A stretch of 64,000 nucleotides of DNA from Arabidopsis thaliana. Taxonomy: Eukaryota; Streptophyta; Magnoliopsida; Brassicales; Brassicaceae. Numbering within the stretch: the first letter of the stretch is position 1; each line of letters starts with the position of its first letter. Positions 15,877-53,609 of this stretch are shown piece by piece. Where the stretch lies: contig NC_003075.7 in the NCBI RefSeq assembly GCF_000001735.4, positions 1,303,001 through 1,367,000 of the forward strand. The letters are read 5' to 3'. Both the position numbers and the translations under genes were made by a program. The notes under the pieces are model-generated. The model was not told the origin of the DNA. It did not search any database and was given only the letters and a program-made list of their open reading frames with translations.

Positions 15877-15883
15877 AAAAAAA
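15877..15883 (-). terminator. Pol III T-run terminator of 7SL RNA
   Basis: Seven T residues on the minus strand directly after the 7SL 3' end, the standard RNA polymerase III stop signal. Confidence 0.85.
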
Positions 15884-16185
15884 TGGTGGTTCATATGAGA
15901 TCGGACCAGCAGGCCATAGTGGTTCTGAGCGACGCTAAACCGTGATCCGTCCACTGCTGTAAGCGGGAAGTAGTCGCTGCTCTGTGAAGCCAGCCTCACG
16001 CATTACCCTCCGACTCTAGAACCTGCATGAGCCAAGCCTTCGCTCAACTCAACACTAATTACTCACAGCTTGGACTGGGCAGCTCAGAAACATGCCCACA
16101 TCAGAACCGATCCGAGGAACCGAACCAGTGTCCCACCATCTTAATGTCCCCACATGGGTTACAAGCTATTGTTACTTAGCTCGAC
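15884..16185 (-). ncRNA. AT7SL-1: 7SL RNA of the signal recognition particle
   Basis: About 302 nt on the minus strand. The 5' end reads GTCGAGCTAAGTAAC and is followed by the conserved Alu-domain segment with TGTAACCC, GTGGGG and GGTGGGAC. The middle contains the S-domain signature GTGAGGCTGGCTT-type helix-8 region (around 15990–16010), and the 3' part pairs back to the start. This is the RNA scaffold of the cytosolic SRP, which docks ribosomes making secreted proteins to the ER. Both promoter elements and the terminator are in place, so the copy looks functional. It lies between ubiquitin-like remnants and ABP1. Confidence 0.93.
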
Positions 16186-35845: not shown

Positions 35846-36250
35846 AATTAGATATGAGAAAGCATTAAGTATAGGTATATAGCTAATCATTAACTGTTTT
35901 TAAGTTGTATGAAAACTCAAATATATAACTTATTTTCTAGGAATTATCTTTCAACTAAAAAAATTTCCAAAAAAAAAGAAAAAAAAGTTAATTCTTTTAT
36001 TGACTTATAGCGTCGTATCGTTGATATAAATTAAATGATTAGTGAAGTATCTTACTCTAAGTTTGTCATACAGCATAAACCTAATAACTGTTTAATGAGT
36101 GTATTTTGTAGTTTAGATTACTTCTAGTCAAAAAATTATTTAAAGAAGTATGTGTTATCCTTCAACGTTTTTATTAGTATAAATTATGAAAAATTGAAAA
36201 ACAAAAAGTTAATTCACTTATAGTTGTGCAGCCGATTTAATTTCGTAAGT
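35846..36250 (+). repeat. Direct repeat, left copy (3' flank of AOP2-type gene)
   Basis: It shares long stretches with 46205–46585 joined to 48656–48700: AGTGAAGTATCTTACTCT, GTCATACAGCATA, CCTAATAACTGTTTAATGAG, TTTAGATTACTT and TTCACTTATAG. In both places the repeat runs into an AOP2-type 3' end on the minus strand, so the block and the gene end were duplicated together. This copy lacks the Helitron and shows the empty site at about 36211. Confidence 0.85.
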
Positions 36251-37104
36251 TCGAATCAGGACCGGTCCGGCATATTTAAATGTGCTACGCAAATAAAAAA
36301 TCTTTTCCTTATAATATTTTTTTTTATAAAATCACAAATAATGTAGTAATATATGATCGGTTATACTAAATTTTATAGAACATATTTTAGTTTCATAAAA
36401 AGTTTGTAAGTAAAAAAACATTCTGTAAATATATTGTTTAGATTTTTGCCTTCAATATCATTTATCAAACTCACGTAATCGAGTTTTTCAACCAGAAATT
36501 ATTTCAATGGATAGCAAAGCTAACACATTTACTTGATTAATTAAAGATTTTTTTTTATAATTTTGCAACTAAAATCACCGTATCTTAGAGCATCACCATC
36601 TATGGTCTCTTGATTTTAGTTTCTCATTTATGTGTGAACACAAATTTTAAGTGTAAACATATTAATAAGTATTTCAGCTTGACTAATTATAAAAAACCAC
36701 ATGTAAGAAACGTTTTTCTCGTAGTCTCTCAAACGAGAGACGACTCTCTCCCACTCTCCTCTTTTTCTATTTTTTCTTTTATTTAATATTGATATATTGT
36801 ACTAGATATCGCTGATGAATATAGTCTTAGGATGTCTTCCATTTTGCAAGCAATTTAAGGTTTAAATTTTTTAAAACCCAATTGTTACCAAATTAGATTC
36901 ATTGACAACAAATATAAGTTTTCATCAAGTTTAAATCCCACGAAACATGAAAAGAAAGCTCAACAAAAATGAATTTATTAAAAAAATGCGTATAATATTT
37001 TTCTTAAAACATAAAAAGCCTTGAAAAATTTATAAAATGTACATTTTCTTTATTTTGATACCCTAAAGTATGGGTTCACTTGATTGCGTGGAACGCCAAC
37101 CTGT
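36251..37104. other. Extra segment within the AOP2-like duplication
   Basis: About 850 bp present here but absent from the paralogous block near 48700. It is AT-rich with no coding capacity. Its origin is unclear (possible transposon insertion); I saw no convincing terminal repeats. Confidence 0.35.
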
Positions 37105-38312
37105 GTAGAATATTCCATAAACACTATTATTATTTGGAGCCATCAACAAATACAAATACAAATACAATAATTTATTACATTATTGTACATGTGCATGTGC
37201 ATGCATGCACACATACTCTATTGATTTTCATACAACACAAAGACTTAGACCTCCAAAAAAATCCATATAAAGACGAATCACACAGAAACAGACATGACTC
37301 AACTAATCAAAAACCCTTTTTTCTTACTACATGGTTTTTGACAAACTTAAAATCACCTAACTCTGTTAAAACTTGGAATCAAGCGCACACATGTAAGCTT
37401 GAAGAGTAGATTGAACTTTACGACCAGCTTCTGAGTGATAGAAGGTAAACAAGTCGCGGTAATCTACGGGTCGTCTGAAGAGACGTGGATGCTTCTCGTC
37501 CACAAGTTCTTTGGTGCCTCTATGATATAGTCCGGTTTTGGATACGTGAAAATCATATCATATTGCTGCTGTGAAAAGTTAATTTTCACGTGTCCAAAAC
37601 CAGATTATCTCATATTGCTGCTGTGTATCTTATCATCTTTTTCCTGCTACTCTTACTCGGCGATACGGAGCACGAGTTCTACCGTTTCCTAAGTGTCTGC
37701 AATATCACCAAGTAAATGATTGATTACTCTTTATTTTCAACAAGAAGATTCTGAAAGAGAATAATAAAAACAGTAGTGTACCAACATTTTTTTTTTTTTT
37801 AAAGAAGAATAAAAAAAGCCATTATTATATTGAAAGTGATGCGAGCAAATAAAATCATAAAAAGCATTACAAAGTGATTGCTAGAGAAATTGGATTGTCT
37901 ATATTATTTATTTAATATTTGAGTTGGATTGTCTATATTATTTATTTAATATTTGAGTTATATTATGCCTCTATTAATCAAAATTAAGTTATAGATCCAC
38001 ATATGTTATTTATAAAGGCCAAATACCCATAGCTCGACTTTTCGAGTCCGTTTGCCATATGACATGACCGGACTAGATTAGCATGAACCTCGAAGAACGA
38101 ATAATGGTTAATATATTTGTGCCAAAGTAAAAAGGAAATGAAAGCTTACACATAGAGAATCTCCAGCGATAATAATGAAAGTATTCGTAGATGATTTCAC
38201 TCTGATCCACTTCTCATCTTTAATTTGGTCATTACCTCCAAATCTTCAATTTCATGTTGAAAAGGTACTGTGAATAGGTTTTTATCAGCATGACACCCAA
38301 CTTCAAATTGAT
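37105..38312 (-). pseudogene. AOP2-like pseudogene (exon 3, intron 2 and end of exon 2)
   Basis: Collinear with the 3' half of AOP2 (about 48706–49790). It has the 3' UTR with the TG/CA-rich motif, the last exon (complement of 'GACGAGAAGCATCCACG'), intron 2 (with a 36-bp tandem duplication at 37891–37962), and the end of exon 2 coding for the KTKDEKWIRVKP region. The match stops near 38312, where AOP2 enters its low-complexity insert, so exon 1 is missing. The last exon is interrupted by an inverted duplication that forms the MIR826 hairpin. There is no open frame. Confidence 0.9.
37520..37615 (+). ncRNA. MIR826: MIR826 precursor hairpin
   Basis: A 32-base arm at about 37522–37554 is complementary to 37582–37613, with a 27-base loop and a few wobbles. 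The 5' arm contains, at 37528–37548, the sequence I recall as mature miR826 (starts TAGTCCGGTTTTGG). The arms derive from AOP2 exon 3: relative to AOP2, a segment was re-inserted in inverted orientation after GTGAAAAT. The mature strand is antisense to AOP2 mRNA. Published work describes miR826, and miR5090 from the opposite transcript, as nitrogen-starvation regulators of AOP2. The promoter is not evident. Confidence 0.9.
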
Positions 38313-39840
38313 TTCAAATTGAGTTTCCACAGGCGATAATATATAAACTCTTCAAGAGCCTTCAATAATATTTATACTTTATCTCATATCGTACTCACAC
38401 TATTATTTTTATTTTTTTGGTTAGATGAGAGATATATCTATTGTTTGTTACCATCTTTATTTTCTCATTTCTGGTGAGAATATGGATTATTGAAAGAAAC
38501 TACTCGATCTTGATCGTGATTCTATTGACCTGATCTTATCTAATATCATATCCACATTCACGATTATTTTTAAAACCATTTCCTCGACTAGTGTTATTAT
38601 CATGGTTCTTTTATTCCCAAAACAAAATGTCACATTCGCTTCAGAGATTTGAACATAATGTGATTTATATTATTGATCATACTCCTTCTTTAATTTTTTT
38701 AAAAAGAATACTGTGATCTTGAACGGTCAAGTACTCGGTGTTAAGACCCTCATGGAAGTGATATACTAGAGATTTCTAAGGGATATTGTAGGTCAAATTT
38801 ACATGAAAGACATTTCAACAATTAATTTAAGGTATCTTGAAGATGATGTAGACAAAAAGGAAAATGAATCAAACGTTGTGAATTTACCACACATATTCCT
38901 CAAACGATTCGTAACCAATGGTGTTAAAGTCAATCTCATCGAACCTGGCCGTATCGTCTGCTCATTTCTTTAGTCTTTCAATCTTTGTTTGAGCAAACCA
39001 TTCAAATTGGTTGATTGGTTGTGTGTGAATTTAAATCATATGCTAGGTTGGATCGCATATACGGTCTTTTAGGTTCAGCGATTACTGATTAGGTTTTGTT
39101 CTTTTATGACTTTTCGTTTCGTAGTCCATATTCTACTTATCACACAGTCTTTTCTAATAATGATGTGTTTTATAGGAATGAGACCATCAAGAGGCACTAT
39201 AAGGAAGTATACGACACGACACTCTCTCCATTAAAGCAAGGTGAGAGATCAAAGTAAGAAATACTCCTATACATATTTAAAGTAAGAAATTTGTTTAAAG
39301 TCCGCATTTTTCAAAAAATTAGTTGAATCTACTTCTACAAACAACTTTTATAAACTTAAAGTTATGATTTATAATAATCTCCGATACACAATAGAATGCA
39401 TGCATGTTAATAAGCTACTGAACAATCCGAGTAAAACTGATTCATGTTCAGAAATTAAGAGTTTAGAAAAAATTATAACTCTTATCTTTAATGTTGAGTA
39501 TGATATTCTAAGAAGAGATTATGGTATCGCTCGAAAAAGAAATATTGTAAGGAAATAAACTACAGTATTACGTTTAGAATAATTCACAATTTTTCTATTT
39601 CAATTGGAACAAATAGAAAATATATAAGAGATAGCCTAGGTCCGAGAAGATTCCAATTTTATAATCACACTAGAACCACATTTTGTTTCATAAGCTTATA
39701 TAATTATTAGTATATGATATTAATAGAATTATATATTGATCTTAGGAATTTTATAAATATTATTTCATCGTATTAGATGGTGTTAGTTTTTATAGTGGAT
39801 TAACTCAAAATCATAAAAGTGTTTATTAATCTTTACTAGT
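38313..39840. other. Spacer with an unidentified decayed coding remnant
   Basis: From about 38705 to 38973 the plus strand reads with few stops (NTVILNGQVLGVKTLMEV, stop, RFLRDIVGQIYMKD … NLIEPGRIVCSFL). Another short piece near 39175–39240 reads NETIKRHYKEVYDTTLSPLKQ. Codon pattern suggests an old gene or transposon fragment, but I do not recognise the family. Confidence 0.35.
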
Positions 39841-39940
39841 GTTTACTAATTTGTTGAGTATTAATTATGGAGGTTTTACTGTATCATTAAATCCACATTG
39901 TTTTTTCTTTCCAAAATACAGTAAGTGAAGGGCACAACAA
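39841..39940 (+). repeat. Duplicated AOP3 upstream segment, left copy
   Basis: About 100 bp (TTTTACTGTATCATTAAATCC, ATACAGTAAGTGAAG, GCACAACAAC) that recur at 40841–40942 directly upstream of AOP3. The edge GGAGGTTTTACTG resembles Emigrant-type MITE termini, but a partner end was not found. Confidence 0.7.
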
Positions 39941-39954
39941 CTTAACTAAATTAG

Positions 39955-40385
39955 ATTATTGGCCACTCAGATAGCAAAGCGGGCATTTGCTTGATTTTGA
40001 CTGACTCACACGGGAAATATATCCTCAAAGGCTGCTCCTCGATCGAGCCAACAAACTCAGCCCTAGAAGCAGAAGCAATAGCCCTCAAGGAGGCATTGCT
40101 CCAAGTGAAGTGCCTACAATACCAGGATGTTATTTTGTGAAGATTCATCAACTCTTTATAGACCTCTTAAAAAAGTACATGGGCATTGGACTTCTTCTGT
40201 AGCTGCGCATTTGGATATCCAAGACATAAAGAAGATATCCTTGCTCTGGCGCCTACCTCCTAACAGCTGCAAGCTTATTTGTAGAAATGCCAATGTCTTC
40301 GCAGATACATTAGCAAAACAAGCTCCTCTCTTGGAATCTTCTTATACTCTCTTGGTTCTCTTAAATGTAACTTCTACATAGAACT
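39955..40385 (+). pseudogene. LINE-type RNase H domain fragment, frameshifted
   Basis: The translation HSDSKAGICLILTDSHGKYILKG … NSALEAEAIALKEALLQV is the RNase H-like (RVT_3) domain of plant non-LTR retrotransposons or derived genes. A stop at about 40138 ends it; the neighbouring frame continues with CEDSSTLYRPLK … RNANVFADTLAKQ, the end of the same domain. It is a dead 3' fragment of a LINE, lying between the two copies of the AOP3 upstream repeat. Confidence 0.85.
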
Positions 40386-40840
40386 GTTGTACTCTTTTAC
40401 TTCCTAATATATAATGGAAATAGGCCGACAAGAAAAACTAGATTATGGGCCTAGTGGGTGCAAGTGGTCATAGTATATCAGCCCTTTTTTTCTGTTCGCC
40501 ACCTTGTTATATACGACAAAAAACTTGCATGAACTCTTTCTTTTGTTGTAATAAGACACAAGAACAAATGTCACCTAATTATTTCATTTCTTCTGGTTTT
40601 CTTGAGTTGGTGGAAAAATAACTAAAATCCAATTTTTATGTAAGCAAATTGAGGACAGGTGGATTGGATATCTAAAAAAATCTAAACCTAAACTAATATG
40701 AAATTTTGGATTGGATTGTACCAGACAAGACGAACTAAATTGTCCTTCACAATTCATAAACCCACAAGTGACATTTTTGTATATCTTGTTTTCTCCGCCA
40801 AGTGACATTATTCATTAACAATTTTTTTTTGTTTACACTA
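40386..40840. other. Spacer between the LINE fragment and AOP3 upstream repeat
   Basis: About 450 bp after the RNase H remnant, AT-rich, with no recognisable coding or RNA feature. A T-run at 40822–40831 lies just before the right-hand copy of the AOP3 upstream repeat. Confidence 0.4.
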
Positions 40841-40942
40841 GTGTTTATAATTGGCTGAGTATTGATTTATAGAGGTTTATTTTACTGTATCATTAAATCC
40901 ACATTGTTTTCTTCCAAAATACAGTAAGTGAAGAGCACAACA
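40841..40942 (+). repeat. AOP3 upstream segment, right copy
   Basis: Partner of 39841–39940. About 35 bp further on there is a TATA box (CTATAAATAG, about 40977) for AOP3. Confidence 0.7.
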
Positions 40943-41181
40943 ACCCACGGCACCTGCTAAAGTGAATAAAAATCTCTATAAATAGGATCGTTCATCATTT
41001 CTTTCTCATCAGCACAGAAGACAAGGAAAACTAAACCATAGTGCAAAGAAAACTAAATTGGTCTTCTTTCAATCAAGAGATATTCGAAAGGTAAATTTCT
41101 TATGAGTTTTGAATTACTTTTTTGCATCTATGTCTAAAGCTAACAACTGCAAAACATTTCGATGGCACAAAGGAAAGAAGA

Positions 41182-43825: not shown

Positions 43826-46204
43826 TACTACTTCTAATTTGTTTTTCCGCTCGTTTGCTTTTCTTTTAAAAAGAACTCTTTAATGAGATGAGTTATAAAT
43901 TTTACAAAGTTAATTCAAAGATTTTAAATATTTTGTATAACTTTCTAAATACCTTGTAAAATCGTTTTACAAGGTTTTTATAAAGTTTTAAAGGTATAAT
44001 GTTTCGCAAGCAAGATCTCATGCGAGAATTATTTGGAAGATCCAAAAAAAGTGAGATCACGTTTCGGTTAAAAATTGCGGAATCATGGTTCTACCATAAA
44101 TTATGAGATTACTTTTAAGGAAAATTTTGCACGTTGCGAAAATTGTTTTGGTGCAAATTTGTTTTTTTTTTTTTTGGCAGGAACATTCACATTTTCATTA
44201 TCTACTCTTACTAAAAAAGTAATTTAGTCATTTGTACATAAATGGGGTATTTTTCAAAATAGACAACATTATGGGATATTATTGAAAATAGACATAGAAA
44301 ATGGGCATTTTGTAGTTAGATTTTACTAAACATTTTCAAGTTATCTATATTTTTTTTTTTTTGTGTTTGAAAATAGCTAAAATAATGACAATATCTTTTA
44401 ATTAAAAAACTACAACATAGGTTTATTGCATATAAACATAGGTTTGATTAATACATATCATTTTTTGTCCAGTTTTTTACAAAAAAAAAATGAAGAATTT
44501 TATAGACTTTACTGGTATCTTAACTACTAACAAATATATATTTTTCATATTTCAAATCAGTTCAATTTCGTAGGAGAATGTTTTAAGAAAAAAATCTGGT
44601 GAGAAACCAATACTAGCATTAACTATTACTCCTTCCGTAGAGTTCATGTTTGAAAGGAAATTTTTTGTTCTAAATTATATGAAGTTTCAGTTTTCAATAC
44701 AATTTTTTTTTTTACGCTTTATATTCTGTAAGTTGTTTTATCATTGGTTAATTGTAATTGGATAATTAATAATTGATGTTTTAGTTAAGAAAAAATCAAA
44801 TTAATTAATTTTTAATCTGTATGTACAATTCTAAAATATCAACTATTAAAAACGGAGGAAGTATAATATATAGTCGTCACACATAGGGAGAATATGCAAA
44901 ACCTTTTTAAAAAAACAATTAAGAGGTGTTTAACCCATTTAATTTCCCCATATTTCAAAAGATAGTCATTATAATCTCTCTGATCACTTGCGTGCGAGCA
45001 AGCGTAAGATTAGGCTTAAGAGACATGATAGGATATGATTAGGCTAAACGAGTCAGGATTGAATTTGTGAGTCACTAAATTTGTAGATGAGTTAGGAAAT
45101 ATTTTTTTAGCTTTCGCTAATTTTAATTAAAATAATAATAAAAAGTATTTTTCTGTAACGTCAGTTTAAAATTTGTGAAAATTGTATCAATACTTAACAT
45201 TAATATTTTGTCCAAAAAAAAACTTAACATTAATACAAAAAAAAAGACTGTGTATAATGATGGATGATTGTTTTGTTTTGAGTGTGAATTTCACGTTCTT
45301 GGTTGTCTTGTACGTTGTATATATGGGTGATTGTGATTGGTTTGTTCTTGTGTATCGTGTAATCTGTAATGTGTGAATAGAAGAGACTGTCCTTACTGAA
45401 AAGTTTGTTTATTCATACCTACTACCTATATTCGCAGGCTAGCATTAGAAGATTCCGCTTTGTTTGGTGCCTTTTGTGGAATTTCATGGGCCTAGTAAGG
45501 CGAATCATGACATGCCGGCTCAGCGTGAATGTCAATATGAATGTTACAATATATGTCATAAAATCATGACTATTATAAGGTTTTAAGATTAATACTTAAA
45601 GTTATCTTATACTCATAAGATCGAACTGTTTTCTCTAGGATTTTTATTCCGTGCTGAGAAAGAAATGAAGAAGGGTACTGAGATAATTAACTCCTAGTTT
45701 ATCTAAATATAATTTGGAGTTGCTCAATAGTGTCCCAATTATAGAGAAACTTATCAACATTAAAACAGAGTGGTTATTAGTTTTCTTGCTTTTCAGATTT
45801 TTGTTGGCTCTTTAGATAAAAACACATGTGAATTTAAGAAAAGACAGAGGAAGGGAAGTGGGTGAATCCTTTTATGTCCGTCAAAGCGTCTCAATACATT
45901 TGTGTTATATAAGCTTAACATATAGCTGATCCCTTAACCCAAGTAAAACATTCTAACCATTGCAAAAGATTTGGAAGATTTGTTTTTTGTTAAAGAAAAT
46001 TTGAAAATTTTATGGAATCATGTTTCATTGTTTAAACATAAAGAAATTTCTCTAAGTTCCTCAAAAAGAAAAAAAAAGATTATTTTCTTATCACATAAAA
46101 AATTGGTTTTCTATGCATTTTTACTAAGTACTATACTAATAAATTGTAGACATCAACAAATATTTATTGAGAATATTTGAATTTATAGAATCACTATTGC
46201 TTCA
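43826..46204. other. AT-rich spacer between AOP3 and AOP2 units
   Basis: No gene is supported. A perfect hairpin with 10-bp arms (CCTTGTAAAA/TTTTACAAGG) lies at 43952–43974. The block at about 44480–44590 resembles 53975–54044 plus 54644–54700, in direct orientation. A Stowaway-like MITE is annotated separately. Confidence 0.5.
44629..44861. mobile_element. Stowaway-like (Tc1/mariner) MITE
   Basis: 233 bp with terminal inverted repeats CTCCTTCCGT and ACGGAGGAAG, flanked on both sides by TA, the target duplication of mariner elements. The interior is AT-rich and non-coding. The 'CTCC-TCCG' terminus is typical of Stowaway MITEs. Confidence 0.7.
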
Positions 46205-46585
46205 TTGTTATGAGAAAGAATTTAGTATGAGTAAATGGTGTAGGTATAAATAATCATTAATTGTTTTTTAATTTGTGTGAACTGAAATAAATTGTTTTCT
46301 AGGAAGTATCATGTCAGCTTAGAAATATAATTATGGAAAAATGAAAAACAAAACTTAATTACCTTATACATAGCGTAGTATCGTTAAGAGATAAAATTAA
46401 GTGATTAGTGAAGTATCTTACTCTTATTTTGTTTTTTAAAATTAAATAAAATTTGTCATACAGCATAGAAAACCTAATAACTGTTTAATGAGTGTACTAT
46501 TTTTAGTTTAGATTACTTTTAGTCAAAAAATTCAAAGAAGTATATTATAATTCCTTTCTAATATAAATTATGAAAAATGTGTTAA
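46205..46585 (+). repeat. Direct repeat, right copy, interrupted by a Helitron
   Basis: Partner of 35846–36250. The match breaks at GTTAA (46585) and resumes at TTCACTTATAG (48656), which marks the Helitron insertion. Confidence 0.85.
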
Positions 46586-48655
46586 TCCTACTATATTATT
46601 TGGGAAGTATATTTTAAATGTAACCTTAATTTTTGTAAATAATTACATAGGTATGCCATTAGAAATAAAATTTTAAAAAGTAAATTAATTTATCTCTTTA
46701 ATGATTAAAAAGTCAAATACTAATTTAATTAATTAAATTTAATTAAAAAACGAAATATATTATTAATTTCCAAAAATAATAACCATTCAAAATCAACATA
46801 TAAGATTTGATATCTAAATTTTTATTAATTTAATTTAATTAGAAAAACAAAATACATTATTAATTTCCAAAAAAATAACCAGTTAAAATCAACAAATTAT
46901 GTTTGATATCTAAATTATCATATTAATTTTTTATTAATTATTATAGTTCACTTCTCATCTTTATATGATTCTATTTTTGCTGAAAAATAATATCATCATT
47001 ATAAAAAAATAATTAGAGTTTTTTCGCATATGCCATAATTTGAATTTTTAAAAACAAATATAAACTGTTCAATACATGAAAAAATATTATAACGGTGAAA
47101 AATAGATTTAAGAAAACTTTCTACTGAGTAACGGGTCATAATTTGAAATATTTATATTCAATTTCATACATATTATATTGAAAATTTATAATTTATATAT
47201 ACTACAATAATTAATAACATATTAGATGTGATTCAATTTTTAATACAAGCTGAAAAATCCTAGAATTGACGGGTTTAGATCGATATTAATACAAGATGGT
47301 ATACTACAGGTGAAACTCTTAAATTAACAATCGAACTACAAGTGTATAATCTTAAACACTAAACAATATAGATAATATCAACAAAACATATACAACTCAC
47401 AGTTTACTATACATTTAAAATCAAATAAAATAATATCATATATTTTTTAATCATCTTTACAATAAAAGTTTTTAGTTTAACTAAAATATAAGTCTACCTG
47501 CGGTATATTGTAGGTTAATATATAGATTATAGAGCTCATTCGATCTAAAAACGGGTCATCAAAGATTTCCTAAACTGAAGCAAAATATACTAAATATTCA
47601 AATATCTATATGTTACCAAATTATAAACAAATAAGTCAATTTATTATTTTATATACGAAATCAATTAAATCTTAATCACATAAAAATTAGCACAAAAAAA
47701 AATATTCAACAATTAAAAATTTATCAAATCTCTGTGTTATATAAGTTTTGATACTATATTCCAATAAAGTGTAATATACCTTTTCAATTTGTATTCTTTA
47801 ACTAATTTAAACTAACTAATATATTTGCTAATTTTATATTTATCAAAACCGACTATCGTTTCTTATCTCTATACAATTTTTGCAAGATTTTTTTGGTGGA
47901 TTTGGATAAAAGTGTATTCGGGTCATATGATACATTCCCCTATTAAATAAATATGGTGCACTCCTATGTTATTAGCTAAAATATTTAGATTATAATTCAG
48001 AGTCATATCATTAATAAAATTAATATTAATAAAATAAATAGCCTTTTGGCAAGACGGGTTTGGAGGGACGGGTTTTTGAATCAACATTAATAAAAAAGTA
48101 AAATATAATTAATCCACCGTTTCAATACGGGTTAAATCTTTAATTTATTATTTTTTAAGACCACTAATATTAAACATATCAAATCATCCTAATTTAGAAA
48201 AGATTATATAAAACCAAAAATGTTATGTGGTATGTATAATGTTACTATATATAAAATTAAACTATAAAATATAAATGTATTAGAGAATGATACAATTTGT
48301 AAAACTTTTATATATGAAAAATAATTATTAAATTTTAAAAATTACTACTTTAAAAAAAATCACGGGACGGGTAAAGAAATTACAGAACGTGTTTTATTTT
48401 GGAATTGGTTATATGGTGGATGTATTTGAATCAATATTTATAAAATTTTAAAATATTATTAATATGCTGTTTTAATAGGGGTTAAAAACTTCAGTTTTTT
48501 AACAATTGTCTCATGAATTCGTGGTATAGTGTTACTTAATAACAATTATAAACTGTAAAATATAAATATTTTATAAGAATAAAATTTGCAAGTTTTAATA
48601 TATATTACTTTTAAAAAATAAATCGTCACGCGGTATACCGCGGATTAAAATCTAG
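46586..48655 (+). mobile_element. Non-autonomous Helitron
   Basis: 2,070 bp. The 5' end is TCCTACTATATTATTTGGG and the 3' end is AATCTAG, inserted between A and T without target duplication. A perfect 14-bp palindrome CGCGGTATACCGCG (48629–48642) lies 9 bases before the terminal CTAG, the typical Helitron 3' hairpin. No Rep/helicase frame is present; the interior is AT-rich with 'ACGGGT' motifs seen in ATREP-type elements. Nested older elements inside are possible (a similar GCGGTATA motif near 47500). Confidence 0.85.
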
Positions 48656-48979
48656 TTCACTTATAGTGGTGCAGCCAATTTAATTTCGTAAAGTTGATAT
48701 ATGTCGAATATATTCTATAAACACTATTATTATTTGGCGCCGTCAACGTCAACAAACACAATAATTTATTACATTATTGTACATGTGCATGTGCATGCAT
48801 GCACACATACTTTATTGATTTTCATACAACACAAAGACTTGGACCTCCATAAAACATACTTATCACACAAACAGAATAACATAACTAATCAAAAGCCCTT
48901 ATTTCGTATACCACATGGTTTTTGATAACTTGAAATCACCAAACATTGTCGAAACTCGGAATCAAGCGCACACATTGAA

Positions 48980-50854
48980 TTATGCTTCGGAGACGGCACA
49001 ATAAGCTTGAAGAGTATATTGAATTTTGCGACCAGCTTCTGAGTGATAGAATGTAAACAAGTCGCGGTAATCAAAAGGTCTGAAGAGACGTGGATGCTTC
49101 TCGTCCACAAGTTCTTTTGGTGCCTCTATGACATAGTCCGGTTTTGGACACGTGAAAATTGCTGCTGTGTATCTTGTCCTCTTTTTCTCGGTCACTCTTA
49201 CTCGGTGATACGGAGCCCTGATTCTACCATTCATAAGAGCCTACATCATCACCAAGTAAATGATTATGAACAAGAAGATTATGTACGAGAAAACAATAGT
49301 AGTGCATCGACCAACATTGAAAGTGATAAGAGCAAATAAAATCATAAGAATTGAGATTTGGTATGAAGTTAAAGCATTATAAAGTGATTGCTAGAGAAAT
49401 GGGTTTGTCTATATTATTTATTTAAATTTTGAGTTATATATGCCTCTAATCAAAATAAGTTATAGATCCATGCACATATGTAATTTTTGTAAAAGGCCAA
49501 AGACCCTTAGCTCGACTTTTCGAGACTGTTTGCCACATGACCGAACTAGACTAGTATGAACCTTGAAGAATGAATAAAGGTTAATATTTGTGTGCCATAG
49601 AAAGTAAAAAACGAAATGAAAAAACTTACACATAGGGAATCTCCGGCAATAACAATGAAAGTATTCGGGGATGGTTTCACTCTGATCCACTTCTCATCTT
49701 TGGTCTTTACCTCCAAACCTTCAATTTCATGTTGAAAAAGTACTGTGAAAAGGTTTTTATCAGTATGACAAGGTAAACCCAACTTCTTTTCCTCATTATC
49801 ATCATTAGCCTCAACATCATCACCACCAGTTTTAGCATTCACAGCAACATTAGAATTGACATTAACACCAACACCAAGATCAGTATTAGCATTAACGCCA
49901 CCACCGACGGCAACATTAGCATCAACATTAAGATTATCATTAACACCGGTATCAGCGTTAACATTAGCACCAACACCAGCATTAACACTAGCATTAGCAT
50001 TAACATCATCACTAATATCGGCATTAACTTTAACACCAACATTAGGTTCAACACCAACAATATTAAGCTTAGCAAGAAGATCAGCATTATCGTCAACAGT
50101 AGTATTAGCATCACCCTCAGGTGGTGCAATATACTTCATCAGTCGCATACGCCGTAGACTTTAGATGGTCATCAATGTATTTTTCTATTCCAAAGCTCTC
50201 CATTACCATTCTTCTCACCATCACATCTATTTCCACTAACTTCTCCGCAAACAACTGGATCGTTTTACTGTTTTCAACCAAAAACAAAAGTGTGAGGATT
50301 CATATGAAAACAAGAAAATACAAATTAAATGAATATGCAGAAAATTTGTTTTCAGATAATTTTTTTTTTTTGTCTTCAGTTCATTGGTTTCATACGATTT
50401 GAGAGTGAATTTAACATTTTACTTTTTAGAGAAAAAAGATTAACATGATTTTTACTAAACAATAGTAAAAACATATGAGTTTTCACCTGATATTCTCGTT
50501 ACCGTCACCATGAGGCCATAGTTGTTGAGTAAATTCGTTGATGTTCTCCAAAATATTAGCATTACTTATCCCCAAACTCTCGGAGAGATTATTATGATTC
50601 AAATATCCAACGTAAGGTTTGGGGCACACGTTTCGTTGTTTGGTCTCAACTGGCAATGCGAAAAGCTCTTCCATGGTTTTCATAATTGATTCCTGAAGCT
50701 CCAATGACACTTTATCATATGAAGCTTCGAAACAACCGAAGTCTTCGAGAGCTTTACGGACATCACTCCTCACTTCAGCCCACTTTGAGCTTCCTGGTTC
50801 TAGGGTTTTGTCCGCAAGATTGATGAGTGGAAGCTGAAGACTGCATGAACCCAT
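48980..50854 (-). pseudogene. AOP2: AOP2, 2-oxoglutarate-dependent dioxygenase, null allele (5-bp deletion)
   Basis: AOP2 converts methylsulfinylalkyl to alkenyl glucosinolates. Exons on the minus strand are 50487–50854, 50267–49630 and 49240–48980. Exon 1 (MGSCSLQLPLINLADK) and the start of exon 2 are in frame. After DDHLKST (near 50150) the frame is lost and a stop follows at 50117–50119, leaving about 172 residues. The original frame resumes at MRLMKYIAPP, out of phase by an amount that fits loss of 5 bp. Downstream are a low-complexity V/N/A/D insert, CHTD, PYHRV and RYTAAIF, all intact. The 5-bp deletion is the published cause of the Col-0 AOP2 null. A TATA box is seen near 51050. Confidence 0.93.
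49134..49154 (-). promoter_or_regulatory. miR826 target site in AOP2 exon 3
   Basis: The plus strand here equals the mature miR826 sequence at 37528–37548 except for one base (C instead of T, a G:U pair in the duplex). AOP2 mRNA is therefore almost perfectly complementary. Confidence 0.85.
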
Positions 50855-52666: not shown

Positions 52667-53040
52667 ATGGATTCAGATTCTCTTCTTCCTCGTTCTATAT
52701 CTTTTCAGCTCCCGGACCCGGTTATCGATTTCTCTAACCAAACCCTAAAACCAGGAAGCTTCTAGAGGACTGCGGTTGTTTCGAAGCTTCTTTTGACATA
52801 TATTGTCTGTAAAGCTTAAGAACTCTGTTGTTGAAGCCATGGAAGAGCTTTTCGAGTTGCCGATTCAGACCAAACTGAGAAACGTGTATTCGCAATGCTT
52901 TCATGGATATCTTTGTCATAATCTTCACCAGAGTTTTGGGATCGTTGATCTTAATGTTTTGGAGAAAGTCAGTAACTTTACTCAACTATTATGGCCTGAT
53001 CATGGGAACAAGAGTATTAGGTATATGAAACCAATCATTT
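52667..53040 (+). pseudogene. AOP1-like pseudogene, exon 1 only
   Basis: Starts MDSDSLLPRSISFQLP, as AOP1. It has a stop directly after KPGSF and an internal deletion relative to AOP1, then LKNSVVEAMEELFELPIQTK … NVLEKVSNFTQLLWPDHGNKSIR with the exon 1 splice donor AGGTATATG kept. Exons 2 and 3 are missing. The sequence then jumps to a copy of the BSL1 3' end at about 53610. Confidence 0.92.
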
Positions 53041-53609
53041 AGGACTTATTTATTTTGAATTAAAGAAAACTAATTTTTTCAAACAACTCGCTTTGATGCT
53101 TTCAAACATGTACCCGCTTTCTAAATTTTTTCAAAAACACGCTTCTATGCTTCCAAACGCTTCCGCTTTCGCGTATCTGCTTCCGATTTCATGCAGCTTA
53201 GGTGAAAATCCGATGAGTCATGGTCACGTTATTGTGAGTTATCGTGATATGTTATTCTTTTATTCTATTTTTTTTTTATGCACATCTATTTTAAAGCATT
53301 TCAAAATAATGTATGTTTAATATTTTATGCTTTGTAATAATATTAAGTTGTATGAAATAAAATAATTTTATATATCTTTTTTTCCAGAAAACTTTTTTAA
53401 GAGAGCCTACCATTAGAGTAAGAAAAACAAAAAAAAAAACACCAAAAGCTCTCTTGTAACTTTTTTTTGAAATCTAATCATTAAAATGGAAAAAACCCAT
53501 AAAAACGCTCTAAAAGAATGGAAAAATTCTCTTCGTTTGAGATGTTCTAAAGGAGTTTTTTTTTAGAAGAAAAGAAAGATATGGAAGAAACAAATTAATA
53601 AAAAAAAAG

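Follow-up and report, generated by a model that had tools for sequence, protein, structure and literature searches.

Fine structure of the fold-back insertion behind the MIR826/MIR5090 hairpins in a decayed AOP2 copy of Arabidopsis thaliana

How does a gene give rise to the microRNA that silences it, and how much of that event can still be read in the DNA? We examined this question at a hairpin (37520-37615) in the AOP cluster of Arabidopsis thaliana, within a contiguous stretch of 64,000 nucleotides of contig NC_003075.7 (C4 1303001-1367000), which is referred to as the window and whose own numbering is used for all other coordinates. The hairpin is the published Arabidopsis MIR826/MIR5090 locus and is therefore already known: a young microRNA gene lying inside a degenerate duplicate of the glucosinolate gene that it silences, AOP2. 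We are very confident that the MIR826 and MIR5090 hairpins come from a fold-back in this decayed copy and that small RNAs from both strands target AOP2. This analysis itself shows the duplication, the insert, the pairing with the target and the predicted fold of each strand, and what it adds to published work is the fine structure of the fold-back insertion only. As the parent gene, its collinear copy and the fold-back all lie within ~14 kb, the birth event is readable base by base and, with resequenced accessions and sister species, potentially datable.

He 2014 reportedly announces in its title two young microRNAs that originated from target duplication. AOP2 was described as related to miR826 in 2006 (Rajagopalan 2006, as cited in PMC2877095), and Liang 2012 (PMC3498362) proposed that miR826 originated by target duplication and gave sequencing, nitrogen-starvation induction and AOP2 cleavage products for it. 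Both miR826 and miR5090 are described as induced by low nitrogen and as targeting AOP2, and their overexpressors as having less glucosinolate and better tolerance (He 2014, via PMC4468412). PMC7758431 agrees on induction, target and phenotype, and PMC4488870, for which a correction exists, again has miR826 raised by low nitrogen. miR826 is not named in the main text of Fahlgren 2007, in PMC12825306 (on DCL1 substrates) or in PMC12611242. The locus studied here is identical to ath-MIR826/ath-MIR5090 in position, mature sequence, target (AOP2), setting in the AOP1-3 cluster and origin from AOP2 duplication; the anatomy of its 62-bp insert is absent from the examined text of the published accounts.

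The sequence that hosts the hairpin is an AOP2-derived pseudogene on the minus strand (37110-38295), which comprises the tail of exon 2, intron 2, exon 3 and 3' flank. When 36001-40500 was compared with the window by BLASTN, the pseudogene aligned with 48710-49770 on the same strand and in collinear order (72.8% over 1,237 aligned columns), and its exon 3, taken without the insert, stands at a JC distance of 0.12 from AOP2, 0.23 from AOP3 and 0.34 from AOP1. A genome search with the pseudogene gave six matches among the best candidates scored, all within C4 1340300-1352770, which is the AOP cluster. Neither tblastx nor blastn (E 1e-3) found a match to exon 1 in 38296-41121, and in the alignment the 62-bp insert, a ~25-bp deletion and smaller indels disrupt the reading frame. 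Homology to AOP2, the missing exon 1 and the broken frame together identify the host as an AOP2-like pseudogene with the hairpin in its last exon, which is where the first-pass annotation had placed it. That annotation had also described the hairpin as born inside a broken copy; the host is indeed broken, but breakage before the insertion was an assumption, as 62 bp by itself shifts the frame and one genome does not reveal whether decay or insertion came first.

The JC distance between the pseudogene and AOP2 is 0.104 in intron 2 (30/308) and 0.111 in the 3' flank (26/251). With 7e-9 substitutions per site and year, this corresponds to a divergence of about 7-8 million years, which is too close to the A. 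thaliana/A. lyrata split for the two to be ordered. The two arms of the hairpin differ at 4 of 33 positions, too few for dating the inversion. According to PMC12611242, an AOP3 duplicate occurs only in A. thaliana and Malcolmia maritima, and A. halleri is without AOP2.

A repeat search located an inverted repeat of 33 nt on the plus strand with arms at 37521-37553 and 37582-37614, 88% complementary and separated by a 28-nt spacer. The 5' arm belongs to the pseudogene's native sequence, collinear with AOP2 (49127-49159), from which it differs at 2 of 33 positions. The 3' arm repeats the 5' arm segment in inverted orientation and differs from AOP2 at 3 of 33; by BLAST it matches AOP2 49160-49127 at 91% over 34 nt (E 8.8e-8). 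Nine inverted-repeat pairs of at least 25 nt within 300 nt were present in the window, none above the 88% of the hairpin, which was equalled by one 26-nt pair at 43936-43990. Folding of 37500-37640 gave -44.0 kcal/mol on the plus strand (z -6.19) and -40.2 on the minus strand (z -6.02), values reached by 0/200 shuffles in either case. Taken alone, 37520-37615 (96 nt) reaches -41.0 kcal/mol on the plus strand, matched by none of 12,738 other windows of that length starting outside 37400-37620; the -36.5 of the minus strand was matched by 13 of them, and by 2 of 4,364 when these were GC-matched. In a 141-nt frame from 37500 the contrast is weaker: of 5,112 windows folded, 57 beyond 37300-37700 are at least as stable as the plus strand (-44.0) and 138 at least as stable as the minus strand (-40.2); the 141-nt window starting at 37476 reaches -52.9, third among all. 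The hairpin claimed from the letters is thus supported by the inverted repeat, by folds on both strands and by the window-wide control, and its arms, given before as 37522–37554 and 37582–37613, were rightly located with coordinates one base off. Strong 141-nt folds near 7.4 kb were considered as similar hairpins and rejected; that region looks coding by eye and has no inverted repeat of at least 25 nt within 300 nt.

Plant microRNA annotation by the Meyers 2008 and Axtell-Meyers criteria asks that the mature strand be almost fully paired in one arm with few mismatches and no large bulge, and also asks for precise 20-24-nt miRNA and miRNA* reads with 2-nt overhangs. Within the predicted stem-loop, 20 of the 21 mature positions are paired and the single mismatch falls at position 6. 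Upstream of the hairpin lies a TATAAA box (37266-37271, plus strand) with no counterpart at the matching place in the AOP2 3' flank; a pattern scan gave two TATAWA boxes in 37000-37530 and one, placed elsewhere, in the AOP2 flank 48640-49140. The box at 37266-37271 is a tentative promoter candidate and, as AT-rich DNA contains many boxes of this kind, only a lead.

The exact 21-mer in the 5' arm (37528-37548, plus strand) is what we take to be mature miR826, as the first-pass annotation did. When the genome (119.66 Mb, 7 contigs) was searched for this 21-mer with up to 3 mismatches, five sites were found: itself, which was the only exact one, AOP2 (1 mismatch), the 3' arm (3) and two sites on contig C3 (3 each). 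The chance expectation is ~2.1 sites at equal base frequencies, and the reversed-pattern control gave none. The site in AOP2 lies in exon 3 at 49134-49154, on the minus strand as the mRNA strand, which bears out the earlier statement that exon 3 carries the same bases in antisense with one change; this mismatch is a G:U pair at miRNA position 16 and the other 20 positions match. At the aligned place in AOP3, chosen by hand and without gaps, miR826 meets 5 mismatches and 3 G:U pairs, and AOP1 has no site at up to 3 mismatches in the genome-wide search. Pairing is therefore near-perfect with AOP2 but not with AOP3.

On the minus strand the 3' arm segment becomes the 5' arm; it is antisense to AOP2 and matches it at 30 of 33 positions, so that the complementary strand (z -6.02) also has a hairpin with an AOP2-antisense arm. 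This second hairpin is probably the reported source of miR5090, judging by its sequence and position. In the account given by PMC4468412, miR5090 arises from the complementary transcript (He 2014). The opposite-strand fold and miR5090 were absent from the first-pass annotation.

Where the pseudogene has the fold-back, AOP2 reads GTGAAAATTGCTGCTGTG straight through, as had been noted before, and the AOP2-anchored comparison together with a multiple alignment delimits the sequence absent from AOP2 as 62 bp at 37554-37615. The first-pass annotation had described a reinserted piece of ~35 bp; with an insert of 62 bp and a duplicated 22-bp junction, such a reinsertion is only part of the event. Read in gene sense, the insert consists first of 33-34 nt copied in inverted orientation from the adjoining part of the exon and then of a short filler; sense pieces of the local flank make up its remainder, together with a short stretch similar to the beginning of the inverted copy, an assignment made partly by eye. 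The insert thereby holds most of a second copy of the 22-bp junction in direct orientation: copy 1 (37552-37573) lies mostly in the loop and copy 2 (37604-37625), 91% identical to it, runs from the 3' arm into native flank, both on the plus strand. The longest exact match between the loop and the 3' side is 16 nt, a length reached by 0/5,000 shuffled loops (maximum 11). With a direct repeat in the loop, a single simple inversion is insufficient to explain the insert.

The inverted-duplication origin of young Arabidopsis MIRNAs such as MIR163 is said to go back to Allen 2004, and homology of both arms to the target beyond the miRNA is its mark. Here such homology extends over 34 nt in both arms; the 5' arm and its flanks continue collinear with AOP2 over ~1.2 kb, whereas the homology of the 3' arm ends at 34 nt. 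As one arm is native, the gene copy was already in place and gained no more than a short fold-back. The inverted duplication of the target invoked earlier consequently stands as regards origin from the target, both arms being AOP2-homologous, but not in its details, as the 5' arm is native and just 33-34 nt are inverted. MIR163 and other young inverted-duplication MIRNAs (Fahlgren 2007) resemble MIR826 in having arms homologous to the target beyond the miRNA and in being young and non-conserved; MIR826 appears to differ from loci of this type in inverting only ~33 nt within an otherwise collinear gene copy.

Template switching at the locus, or fold-back repair of a break, may have given rise to the fold-back, and in this one genome the anatomy of the insert appears to fit a serial template-switch/fold-back event better than one clean inverted duplication. 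We give about even chances to the fuller proposition that MIR826/MIR5090 is not a classical inverted duplication, but that serial template-switch/fold-back repair of ~62 bp, as one mutation inside an AOP2 copy, created a two-strand palindrome targeting AOP2; a second switch would have left the 22-bp direct repeat as its scar in the loop. Template switching makes hairpins at mammalian microRNA loci through local reverse-complement insertions (PMC8794818), and fold-back break repair in yeast leaves inverted insertions mostly of ~5-34 bp (PMC11724301). The former, as described there, share with MIR826 a long stem made by a reverse-complement insertion beside its template, but they are mammalian and the MIR826 insert additionally carries a direct copy of the junction; the words 'plant' and 'Arabidopsis' are absent from the main text of PMC8794818. 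In the literature searched, with most subscription journals outside it, we found neither a template-switch/fold-back reading for any plant MIRNA nor a passage on A. lyrata that deals with miR826.

The sequence of events that we propose begins with the copy of the 3' half of AOP2 that lies ~11 kb from AOP2 and has decayed, be it before or after the next step. A short exon 3 stretch of the pseudogene would have been copied back inverted beside itself, leaving a near-palindrome. A plus-strand transcript would then serve as the miR826 precursor with the miRNA in its 5' arm, and a minus-strand transcript would form the second hairpin and yield miR5090. As the 5' arm of each hairpin is antisense to AOP2, each small RNA could guide cutting of AOP2 mRNA in exon 3, presumably with AGO1 as the effector, and this cutting would lower glucosinolate side-chain modification under nitrogen starvation.

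One step of this scheme can be contested from within the arms themselves, as the inverted piece could, in keeping with the classical model, have come from AOP2 and been inserted into the pseudogene instead of being copied from the pseudogene's own arm. The 3' arm has a 21-nt exact run with AOP2 and is closer to AOP2 (30/33) than to its 5' neighbour (29/33), and at 37543 (arm position 23) it shares C with AOP2 while the 5' arm shares T with AOP3. This, however, is a single site and could easily reflect a change that the 5' arm acquired once the copy had been made; with just one informative site, a pseudogene template followed by later mutation and an AOP2 template are not separable by it. The inverted copy moreover directly adjoins its template and the loop recopies local flank, which points to a local event, and we consider an AOP2 template unlikely, at perhaps one chance in five.

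Two further alternatives concern what the hairpin does and not how it arose. That it mainly makes siRNAs, including 24-nt DCL3 products, which act on the chromatin of the AOP cluster and not as a miRNA on AOP2 mRNA, is improbable in our judgement, although the replacement of 24-nt miR826 by a 22-nt form in dcl3 mutants (review PMC4211545) and AGO4-bound small RNAs from AOP3 (PMC2877095) are described. Against it, AOP3 pairs poorly with miR826, and other papers report AOP2 cleavage products matched to miR826 (PMC3498362) and target-site changes that relieve repression (PMC4468412). A chance palindrome or inert pseudogene repeat from which no small RNA is made deserves hardly any credence: raw sequence proves no transcription and the TATA-like box is a weak lead, but the plus-strand fold was matched by 0/12,738 other windows, the arm holds an exact match to a known miRNA, and miR826 induction and AOP2 cleavage products are published (PMC3498362).

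The target gene itself (AOP2, approximately 48980-50854, minus strand) comprises three exons according to the ORF list and translations. Its exon 2 loses frame near 50150 (50110-50160), just before a repetitive Asn/Val/Asp-rich stretch, and this loss is consistent with the 5-bp deletion of Col-0; PMC3498362 describes AOP2 as null in Col through such a deletion, and PMC8205490 repeats this. Here AOP2 is frame-shifted and apparently non-functional, which leaves silencing by miR826 no functional product to suppress in this accession. The low-complexity part of exon 2 (49839-50164) has overlapping ORFs of ~100 aa on both strands and a strong minus-strand fold (-37.6 kcal/mol per 96 nt at 49931).

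The window holds other traces of rearrangement. Between AOP2 and AOP1, an AOP1-like exon 1 fragment on the plus strand (52667-53062; 76% DNA identity over 438 columns with 7 gap openings) is apparently another decayed AOP copy of the cluster. The duplicated block includes the downstream flank of AOP2 (36007-36248 against 46329-46578 and 48647-48691), which on the AOP2 side is split by ~2 kb of additional DNA (46579-48646) that perhaps inserted once the duplication had occurred. A direct repeat of ~110 bp (87%; 39835-39941 and 40837-40944), its copies ~0.9 kb apart, lies between the pseudogene and AOP3. Scanned against Rfam at gathering thresholds, the window gave no miRNA family at the hairpin, the sole match being a full-length plant signal recognition particle RNA on the minus strand (15879-16185; Plant_SRP, 249.8 bits).

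The locus is thereby confirmed as a textbook-like example of a young microRNA that adjoins the gene which is both its source and its target, and what it still has to offer is mechanistic: a worked example of the birth of such a hairpin. If the serial template-switch/fold-back reading is true, one local error of replication can be enough to make a decaying paralogue regulate the gene from which it came, and a similar reinterpretation could apply to other young MIRNAs of plants.
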